A stretch of DNA of 64,000 nt, taken from Oscillospiraceae bacterium. GTDB taxonomy: Bacteria > Bacillota > Clostridia > Oscillospirales > Acutalibacteraceae. Location of the stretch: positions 1 to 64,000 of the forward strand of contig SVPG01000009.1 of assembly GCA_015065975.1 (NCBI GenBank). Reading direction: 5' to 3'. Positions 1,699 to 5,578 of the stretch are shown in pieces. The notes beneath the pieces were generated by a model that was not told the DNA's origin, did not search any database, and saw only the letters and a list, made by a program, of their open reading frames with translations. Position numbers and translations under genes: made by a program. Numbering within the stretch: position 1 is the stretch's first letter; every line of letters begins with the position of its first letter.

Positions 1699-1731
1699 AA
1701 TGCACATAACAAACCGAAAGGATTGAAAGAA

Positions 1732-2601
1732 ATGAAAAAAGTTATCAGCATTCTTCTCGCAGTCGTTATGATCGTTTCCTGCATGGTCGCTCTTACCGCT
1801 TGCGGTACTGACGAAGGTGCAGCAGCAGGCGCAACAGGCGTCAAGGTCATCAACATCCCCCTCACCGACGAGCTTTACGCTTTCGGCGTTAAGAAGGACG
1901 ATCCCGATCTCCTCTCCAAGGTCAACACCTTCATCGGCGAGGTCAAGTCCAACGGACAGCTCGATGCTATCCTCAACAACTACTTCGGCGACGGCAAGCC
2001 CCAGGGCGTAACCTCCGCTGTTGAGGATCCCGCAAAGGATCAGCTCATCGTTATCACCAACGCAGAGTTCGCTCCCTTTGAGTATCTCGAGGGCGAGACC
2101 TTCTACGGCGTTGACATGGAGCTTGCAAAGCTTCTCGCTGACTATCTCGGCAAAGAGCTCGTTATCAAGAACGTCGACTTTGAAGTTGTCTGCTCCCAGA
2201 TCGACGCAGGCTACGGTGACATCGCTATGGCAGGTCTGACCGTCAACGAGACAAGAACCGAGTTCGTCACCTTCTCCGAGTCCTATTACACCGCTTGCCA
2301 GATGGTTATCGTCAAGAACGGCGACACCACTTTCGACGAGTGCAAGACCGCTGCTGACGTTGAGGCTATCCTCGCAGGATTCGACGACAAGACCAGCATC
2401 GGCGTTCAGAACGGCACCACCGCTCAGTATTATGTTGAAGGCGATGCAGACTGGGGCTTCGACGGCTTTGCTGCTACCTGCACAGGCTACACCTCCGGCG
2501 CTCTCGCTGTTCAGGATATGCTCAACGGCAACATCGATCTCGTAATCATCGATGAAGCTCCCGCAAACAGCATCGTTGAGGCTGTCAACGCTGTAAACTG
2601 A
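1732..2601 (+). CDS. Circularly permuted family-3 amino-acid ABC transporter solute-binding lipoprotein
   Basis: The 289-aa lipoprotein has a signal peptide and lipobox LTAC with Cys24. It should bind a polar amino acid outside the membrane for the permease and ATPase encoded next. ATG at 1732 has AAAGGA at good spacing; an upstream in-frame ATG at 1690 would spoil the signal peptide. Residues 37-86 (PLTDELYAFGVKK ... LDAILNNYFG) match what is normally the last 50 residues of these proteins. The usual first strand (ITNAEFAPFEY) only appears at residue 108, and the chain stops right after IIDEAPANSIV. The canonical order is therefore circularly permuted through a linker at about 87-102. Canonical ligand-loop motifs (GLTVNETR, GVQNGTTA) are present. 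It is the first gene of a three-gene operon. Confidence 0.92.
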   Translation: MKKVISILLAVVMIVSCMVALTACGTDEGAAAGATGVKVINIPLTDELYAFGVKKDDPDLLSKVNTFIGEVKSNGQLDAILNNYFGDGKPQGVTSAVEDPAKDQLIVITNAEFAPFEYLEGETFYGVDMELAKLLADYLGKELVIKNVDFEVVCSQIDAGYGDIAMAGLTVNETRTEFVTFSESYYTACQMVIVKNGDTTFDECKTAADVEAILAGFDDKTSIGVQNGTTAQYYVEGDADWGFDGFAATCTGYTSGALAVQDMLNGNIDLVIIDEAPANSIVEAVNAVN

Positions 2602-2690: not shown

Positions 2691-3401
2691 GTGCCTAATT
2701 TTGATAAGAAATGGGAAGTGTTTGTACGCTCGTTTATTGACAACGAAGGTTACAAACGCGTTCTCGAAGGACTCCAGAACACCCTTCTGATCGCTCTTGT
2801 CGGTCTTGTGATCGGTATTGCGATCGGTACTCTCATAGCAGTCGTCAGGGTTATGCCGAAATACGGCGTTCTGCCGAAAATACTTAACGGCATCTGCAGT
2901 GTATATACCGAATTTTTCAGAGGAACTCCGATAGTCGTTCAGCTTCTTCTCGGTTATTACGTTCTGCTCCCGCTCCTCGGTGTATCGATGAAGCCCGTCG
3001 GAGTATGTATTCTGATTTTCGGACTCAACAGCGGCGCTTACGTTTCCGAAATAATGCGCGGCGGTATCGGTTCGGTCGATCCCGGTCAGATGGAAGCAGG
3101 CCGTGCCCTCGGTATGAGCTACTGGGCAACAATGCTCAAAATCGTCGTTCCGCAGGCTGTCAAGAATATTCTTCCCACCCTCGGCAACGAGCTCATCTCC
3201 CTCGTCAAGGAAACATCGGTCGTCAGCTTCGTCGGCGCGCTCGATCTTTCCAACGCTTTCAGATATATCGCATCAAACAACTACGAGTTTATGATCCCGT
3301 ATCTTGTAATGGCTGTTATATATATTCTGATAGTTCTTGTAATCGCAGTCTTTATCAGACTTATGGAAAGGAGGCTGAAAAAGAGTGATAGAAGTAATTG
3401 A
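2691..3401 (+). CDS. Amino-acid ABC transporter permease (HisM/GlnP family)
   Basis: The 236-aa inner-membrane permease has about five hydrophobic segments. It carries the family loop that docks the ATPase (residues about 133-160: [12 protein letters not shown] ... PQAVKNILP). The FRGTP(I/V) motif after TM2 is also present. The GTG start at 2691 has GAAAGGAG upstream. The last 17 bases overlap the ATPase gene, so the two are translationally coupled. It forms the membrane channel for the permuted binding protein encoded upstream. Length is normal for the family. Substrate cannot be read from sequence; a polar amino acid is the family expectation. Confidence 0.93.
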
Positions 3402-4234: not shown

Positions 4235-5578
4235 TTATCTTACATATCGTGTTATCTTCTGAGCAATTGCGCCTATGCGTTTGTATGTAATTTTTTTGCA
4301 CAGCCAGTCCGTAAAACGTCCGTATTTTCTGTACAGCAGATTAAACAGCAGATAGGTACTTCTCTGATCTTTGGCAGCCGGCAAACGACGAAAGATGTTT
4401 TTAAGGCTGTAAACCTGCCGATATATCCAAAGATAGCCTTCATAAAGCTCGTCGGGTGTCATATTCTTCGGCTCATATACAACATGAGCTGTATTATATT
4501 CTGACAGGTCATCCGAAGTAATGCGGCCTTCAGCCTTCATGCGGTCATACAGCACTGTACCGGGATACGGCGTAAGAATGTGAGATGTTACGGTTTCTAT
4601 CTTATTGCGGACTATCCAATCCAGTGTCGCCTGAAAAGTTTCCTTTGTATCCGCATCAAGACCAAACACAAAACTACCGTTAATCATTATTCCGCGTCGA
4701 TGTATTTCCTCAACCGCTTTTTCATATTTGATAAGGCTGTTATGATCCTTGTGTACATCTGCAATGGATTGCGGGTTAACACTTTCAAACCCGATAAACA
4801 GACTTCGGCACCCGCTCTCCTTCATCAGATCGAGCAGCTCGGGATTGTTCGCAACATTGATGGACACAGCCGCATTCCACTTCAATTTCATCGGCATTAT
4901 AGCATGCAAAAACTCGTATGTCCATTTCGGGTTGCCCGTGAAATTGTCATCGATAAACATTATATGCCGCGATCCTACCGCTTCAATATCTCTTATAACA
5001 TCGTCGATATCCCGATTGATATATTGGTGTGCTTTGCTGCTGTTGTAACAAAAATCACAGCGGTACGGACAGCCTCTGCTTGTATGAATTACATTACAGT
5101 ACAGGTATGGATCATCGGTAATCATATCATACGCAGGTGATACAATATCGCTTGGCGATATCTGACCTTTACAGGTGTAAATCTTTTTCAGGCTGCCGTT
5201 TTCGTAATCGCGTACGATATCCGGCCACGTTCCTTCAGCCTGTCCGACACAAAGCACATCAAAAGCGTCCTGCGCAATCGTGGAAAAAGCTGTGGTTATA
5301 TGTATTCCCCCGGCTACTACAACAACGCCCCTGCTGCGAAACCTTCGCGCGATCTCCTGAGCACGCGGGAGAACATCAACCGTCACCGATATCCCGACAA
5401 TATCGGGAGTATCATCAAAATTTATCGGTCCGATATTCTCGTTTTCCACGACAACGGTATGCTCATTTCGGAGAATATTTGCCACCGTAAAGAGCCCCAA
5501 AGGCGGCGCCATATGTATCTTGATATCAGTATCCATCGGTCGTTTGATCATTTTCGGCTGAATCAATTTTATATACAT
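4235..5578 (-). CDS. B12-binding-domain radical SAM protein
   Basis: The 447-aa protein has an N-terminal cobalamin-binding-like Rossmann region (about 1-130; PPLGLFTVANIL, then VVVVAGGIH). It is followed by a radical SAM barrel with Cys170-x3-Cys174-x2-Cys177 (CPYRCDFC). Downstream motifs are typical of the class (FIDDNFTGNP, FIGFESVNP, SFVFGLDADT, TPYPGT). The N-terminal domain lacks the DxHxxG base-on motif, as in most of this family. Members methylate or rearrange unreactive carbons in natural-product, lipid or tetrapyrrole metabolism. No partner gene sits nearby, so the substrate is unknown. It is monocistronic with its own strong promoter. Confidence 0.85.
   Translation of the reverse strand: MYIKLIQPKMIKRPMDTDIKIHMAPPLGLFTVANILRNEHTVVVENENIGPINFDDTPDIVGISVTVDVLPRAQEIARRFRSRGVVVVAGGIHITTAFSTIAQDAFDVLCVGQAEGTWPDIVRDYENGSLKKIYTCKGQISPSDIVSPAYDMITDDPYLYCNVIHTSRGCPYRCDFCYNSSKAHQYINRDIDDVIRDIEAVGSRHIMFIDDNFTGNPKWTYEFLHAIMPMKLKWNAAVSINVANNPELLDLMKESGCRSLFIGFESVNPQSIADVHKDHNSLIKYEKAVEEIHRRGIMINGSFVFGLDADTKETFQATLDWIVRNKIETVTSHILTPYPGTVLYDRMKAEGRITSDDLSEYNTAHVVYEPKNMTPDELYEGYLWIYRQVYSLKNIFRRLPAAKDQRSTYLLFNLLYRKYGRFTDWLCKKITYKRIGAIAQKITRYVR

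Follow-up and report, generated by a model that had tools for sequence, protein, structure and literature searches.

Natural circular permutations are usually regarded as rare, old and single events, and cases are known among the binding proteins of ABC importers. The closest is Tp0684 (TpMglB-2) of Treponema pallidum, a natural permuted and lipidated sugar-binding protein of 'Type Ic / cluster Bc' that still binds ligand and changes conformation and whose topology has been suggested to be a possible adaptation to tethering (PMC4990184). Glycine-betaine-binding proteins are also related by circular permutation (CPSARST, PMC2395249). A family-3 protein, LAO-BP, has been permuted by engineering for lysine sensors; this construct, in which (GGS)4 bridges the termini, still bound lysine, ~36-fold more weakly (PMC5087393).

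The protein described here is encoded in a 64,000-nucleotide stretch of DNA from an Oscillospiraceae bacterium (hereafter the window) and shares its sequence family with GlnH, ArtJ, HisJ, T. maritima ArgBP and AncQR, which are canonical family-3 (cluster F, type II) proteins. It resembles them in the predicted fold of its D1a and lobe 2 segments, in contact residues, in export as a lipoprotein and in its operon with a PAAT permease and ATPase, but its chain order is rotated and its termini and lipid anchor are on lobe 2 rather than lobe 1. Like Tp0684, it is a natural, lipidated and circularly permuted ABC-transporter binding protein, but Tp0684 is a type I, sugar-binding protein with a fourth crossover, whereas the window family is type II and amino-acid-binding, has no added crossover and includes several cuts and origins. 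The betaine-binding proteins are likewise naturally permuted receptors of ABC importers, but they belong to another family and their permutation was detected between structures less than 24% identical, whereas the family-3 case includes proteins up to 73% identical. Engineered LAO-BP, which still binds its ligand, shares with the window protein its family and the joining of its termini by a linker, but it is man-made and was opened within one of its two interdomain linkers, whereas in the natural proteins the hinge strands are left uncut. Consistent with the first-pass annotation, which knew of no description of such a permutation, we found no report of natural permutation of family-3 proteins in the literature searched (preprints and most subscription journals lie outside it).

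The solute-binding protein (SBP) gene is the first of an SBP-permease-ATPase operon (Table 1), and its association with a TIGR01726-type permease and a GlnQ-type ATPase is that of a PAAT importer. The interval given in the first-pass annotation begins at 1840, which is codon 37, where the permuted block opens, and the gene itself starts from the ATG at 1732; a wrong gene start as the source of the unusual order was rejected. The signal peptide of this lipoprotein closes with the lipobox (LTAC), and both a lipobox and the intact transporter operon noted earlier are present. In a profile search of the genome, which is 87% complete and in 43 contigs, the window SBP was the sole PF00497 protein and the adjoining permease the sole TIGR01726 match. 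Therefore, no canonical stand-in receptor was found in this 87%-complete genome, and the permuted protein is probably used, as had been supposed. No riboswitch or T-box leader naming the amino acid was linked to the operon in the window or in 15 homologous loci. The ORF directly upstream of the SBP gene has a homolog that is likewise 5' of the SBP gene in locus L002.

Table 1. Features of the SBP operon and its neighborhood in the window.
Feature	Position	Strand	Basis
tmRNA gene, tag peptide ASTYKLNNNNTVAYAA	180..527	-	
ORF directly upstream, 286 aa	666..1526	+	weak CoiA N-terminal match (PF25164, 4.3e-7)
RBS-like AAAGGA, 9 nt 5' of ATG 1732	about 1717..1722	+	sequence reading
SBP gene, type-A permutant of a family-3 amino-acid-binding lipoprotein (289 aa)	1732..2601	+	Pfam, phmmer, PF00497 profile, AF2 model pLDDT 93.7
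Signal peptide, residues 1-23, lipobox ...LTA/C	1732..1800	+	sequence; Cys invariant in 73 aligned homologs
Mature Cys24 codon	1801..1803	+	lipobox LTAC = residues 21-24
D1b (residues 37-86), the permuted block, which is C-terminal in canonical proteins: final strand of lobe 2, crossover 2 of the hinge, C-terminal portion of lobe 1	1840..1989	+	phmmer to AncQR 181-233; GlnBP from residue 172
Linker DGKPQGVTSAVEDPAKD, 17 residues (87-103), joining canonical C- and N-termini	1990..2040	+	phmmer, GlnBP mapping
D1a, residues 104-189: canonical N-terminal part of lobe 1 and hinge crossover 1	2041..2298	+	PF00497 1-98; AncQR from 12
Lobe 2 (D2), residues 190-289, ending at GlnBP ~171	2299..2598	+	phmmer, GlnBP mapping
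SBP stop codon	2599..2601	+	ORF start = ATG 1732
PAAT-type permease, 236 aa, GTG start	2691..3401	+	PF00528 9e-25, TIGR01726 1.9e-21
GlnQ-like transport ATPase, 260 aa	3385..4167	+	PF00005 3e-37; PRK09493 7.9e-93
Downstream ORF, 447 aa, candidate cobalamin-binding radical SAM protein	4235..5578	-	by eye, CxxxCxxC-type motif

Two comparisons place the segments of the window SBP in swapped order. Pfam calls SBP_bac_3 (PF00497) in two separate stretches (95.5 bits vs a cut-off of 26.4, E = 2.8e-27), and in the genome-wide profile search positions 97-131 of PF00497 (E = 9e-7) match upstream of positions 1-98 (E = 1e-19). With phmmer against AncQR (PDB chain 4zv1; whole-sequence E = 1.7e-22), query residues 105-282 align to 12-175 and query residues 35-87 to 181-233 (i-E = 0.002 for this N-terminal block alone), with ~5 AncQR chain residues between the two target segments. 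Residues 37-86 match the canonical C-terminal block and 104-282 the canonical N-terminal part, and the chain does not follow the canonical order D1a, lobe 2, D1b. When mapped on E. coli GlnBP (MG1655), the C-terminus falls at ~171 and the N-terminal block starts from 172, indicating that no segment was lost. The first-pass reading of a clean circular permutation rather than a partial duplication thus stands, as the segments are swapped, the ends abut on GlnBP and nothing is doubled or absent; the linker, put there at roughly 16 residues, has 17 by mapping. By descent the window SBP belongs to the SBP_bac_3 family, of which it is a permuted variant.

An assembly artefact, a frameshift or a partial duplication might mimic such an order, and the genome is both incomplete and fragmented. 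However, the 80 to 81 homologous loci examined all have the same order as the window SBP, save those masked or ended by a contig, which accords with the earlier remark on similar sequences in other clostridia. In these loci the signal peptide precedes the permuted block, and the SBP-permease-ATPase order is kept as far as the contigs reach. Because the homologous loci are collinear and include isolates (Acetivibrio, Thermoclostridium, Coprococcus catus and Mediterraneibacter), an artefact is excluded, and with open frame, lipobox and operon intact and no segment repeated or missing, we give this whole class of explanation next to no credence. The 73 mature homologs aligned are 53-64% identical to the window SBP and have invariant residues in common with it.

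We modeled the mature window SBP with AlphaFold2 from an input alignment of these 73 mature sequences. The model (pLDDT 93.7, pTM 0.86; disorder at residues 1-10 only) predicts a two-lobed type II fold. Its D1a and lobe 2 superpose on T. maritima ArgBP 6ggv (Z 17.1, 2.3 A, 172 residues) and on 4ymx (1.7 A over 166 residues), these being the only parts that the sequential aligners (Foldseek, VIA-align) covered, with residues 37-86 outside the alignment. By sequence and predicted structure the protein matches type II amino-acid-binding proteins and not type I (MglB-like) proteins such as Tp0684. A model of a type-B permutant (see below), built from six sequences only, reached pLDDT 68 and pTM 0.60.

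A monomer prediction is also compatible with a domain-swapped dimer, in which the N-terminal block of one molecule would fill lobe 1 of another and the intertwined dimer would be the unit, and swapped elements are reported for permuted ribose-binding protein constructs (cited in PMC10601554). However, a linker of 17 residues should suffice within one chain, as 12 residues bridge the same ends in engineered LAO-BP (PMC5087393), and in all three permutation types described below the two profile matches stay 19-35 residues apart. Given also the confidence of the monomer model, we consider such a dimer improbable.

The GlnBP residues F13, F50, A67, G68, T70, R75 and D157, which we take to be its amino-acid contacts, correspond to F113, F150, A167, G168, T170, R175 and D274 of the window ORF. 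The Arg and Asp at the R75 and D157 positions, holders of the alpha-carboxyl and alpha-amino groups, are present and invariant in the 73 homologs. Because the two-lobed clamp and the amino-acid contacts are kept, an alpha-amino acid should bind between the lobes. Other contact positions have changed (GlnBP D10 is Asn in the window SBP, and the K115 and H156 positions also differ), so that one might instead think of a receptor without a transport role, such as a sensor or a binding decoy. Yet the core contact residues are invariant, and a PAAT permease and ATPase are strictly linked to the SBP gene in the homologous loci and accompany it in most other permuted clades, making a role outside transport very improbable. 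The window SBP is thus, with high probability, a genuine natural circular permutant of a GlnH-like family-3 lipoprotein and the receptor for the PAAT ABC importer encoded with it.

In such a receptor, the N-terminal lipid would anchor the chain, which would enter at the last lobe-2 strand, run through hinge crossover 2 and the C-terminal part of lobe 1 into the linker joining the old termini, and then finish lobe 1, cross hinge 1 and end with the remainder of lobe 2. The clamp would close on its alpha-amino acid and hand it to the neighboring permease and ATPase.

The window cut, at GlnBP ~171/172, lies in lobe 2 between the last helix and the last strand, and both hinge crossovers therefore survive. 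It is also outside the strands that we take to be the GlnBP hinge (85-89 and 181-185), which does not bear out the earlier suggestion that a permuted hinge could alter domain motion. Mapping the ends on GlnBP ruled out the possibility that one hinge crossover is lost with each cut. The old termini are both on lobe 1 in the family-3 fold, as stated for LAO-BP (PMC5087393); in net terms, lobe 2 has replaced lobe 1 as the site of the chain ends and the lipid anchor.

When all fetched loci were scanned with separate profiles of D1a, D1b and lobe 2, the canonical order and three permuted types could be distinguished. Type A, that of the window (D1b-D1a-D2), is cut at GlnBP ~166-178, type B (D2-D1b-D1a) at ~95-103 and type C at ~127/128, and all three sites are in lobe 2 and outside both hinge strands. 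Type C occurs in two separate clades (L157, L160, L161 and L162; L102, L168 and L244). A lipobox is present in 150 of 152 distinct permuted proteins, the exceptions being L142, with an N-terminal hydrophobic stretch, and the permease fusion L091/L174. Most permuted proteins are encoded before a PAAT permease and ATPase. Permease-fused type-B proteins occur in genomes G397, G735 and G696, and a permease-fused permuted tandem in G134.

A single type-B domain with a C-terminally fused PAAT permease is encoded at L174:1633-3243 (537 aa), L226:1408-2937 (510 aa) and L227:961-2463 (501 aa), and in these fusions the permease is attached to the first lobe-2 strand, not to lobe 1. The G134 protein (L169:1954-4290, 779 aa) has two permuted domains (D2-D1b-D1a twice) and a permease, making it a permuted counterpart of GlnP. 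One type-B gene (L052:6515-7354; lobe 2 first, cut near GlnBP 95-100) adjoins a window-type operon; its product and that of L176:2262-3173 end after the first lobe-2 strand.

Among 391 genomes of the window's class, the full window-type profile (E <= 1e-60) found matches in 29, two of which (G496 and G560) sit in a different tree clade. We also surveyed these 391 genomes with a profile of the junction D1b-linker-D1a (A3). Matches fell into two clear groups, 88 that span the junction and others that begin inside it. By hand count from the listing, the 88 came from 81 genomes, and 85 of them (also a hand count) lie in reading frames no longer than 340 codons, too short for tandem proteins. All 29 of the junction-spanning loci then fetched were permuted, with D1b before D1a.

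For phylogenetic analysis, each sequence was reordered at its linker into the canonical arrangement before alignment, and the resulting trees were unrooted. A careful tree of 86 rows requires 13 changes among the four states and 8 between canonical and permuted, and the numbers forced by strongly supported branches by themselves are six for type A, six for type B, two for type C and six for canonical. In a quick tree of 109 rows the corresponding values are 18 and 13 changes, with four, five, two and four forced. Constraining all permuted proteins to group together lowers the log-likelihood by 578 units, which rejects a single origin (AU p = 4e-49), and grouping the window clade with L153/L154 is likewise rejected (AU p = 0.014). 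Several origins can safely be stated and four to six are well supported, whereas 8-13 is a parsimony count; these numbers are approximate because the groups were partly picked after viewing the trees and because permuted queries guided the sampling.

Over the full length, L153/L154 are 67% identical to their nearest canonical protein, the L131 group 65-68%, L172 60% and L052/L176 67-73%. The canonical counterparts of L052/L176 are in related genomes (L132 is the 73% identical relative of L176), and we take this permutation to be recent. In the window clade the corresponding identity is only 38-43%, so that its permutation is the older one. As gain and loss are indistinguishable in change counts on unrooted trees, one ancient permutation followed by many reversions to canonical order might be proposed instead of several permutations. 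However, three different cut sites are incompatible with one permutation, the solved relatives matched here have canonical order, and L052/L176, L153/L154 and L131/L133 stand beside canonical proteins 67-73% identical over their full length, all of which leaves reversion very improbable. Beyond what the first-pass annotation described, the permutation is therefore no one-off, and three cut types arose repeatedly in family-3 proteins.

The simplest origin for the clostridial family-3 permutations would be a tandem duplication in frame and subsequent loss of the outer parts. The window SBP is collinear with the GlnP-type tandem 6h30 from the C-terminal part of SBD1 through the linker into SBD2, as expected of a tandem-duplicate remnant, although GlnP-type tandems, unlike the window SBP, have two complete domains fused to a permease. 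Tandems of either order, canonical (L170) and permuted (L169), are present among the loci. Both halves of a type-B query match one canonical gene of G696, at 70% and 66% identity, which in terms of architecture would be expected if a parent gene had been tandem-duplicated, fused and trimmed. No intermediate of this route was caught. A possible but somewhat doubtful extension is that permutation in clostridia has been recurrently adaptive, with the tether (or the fused permease) moved from lobe 1 to lobe 2 via one of three lobe-2 loops and the hold of the receptor over its permease thereby changed.

These results indicate that a supposedly rare event looks frequent in one protein family and that some permutations are recent enough for a permuted protein and its canonical relative to be up to 73% identical. 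Such recent pairs are matched natural tests of how chain order and tether position affect folding, affinity, clamp motion and ABC docking, and they could allow a direct test of the duplication route to permutation. The results also bear on annotation: one or more such proteins occur in roughly one in five of the sampled class genomes and appear as partial matches in collinear alignments.
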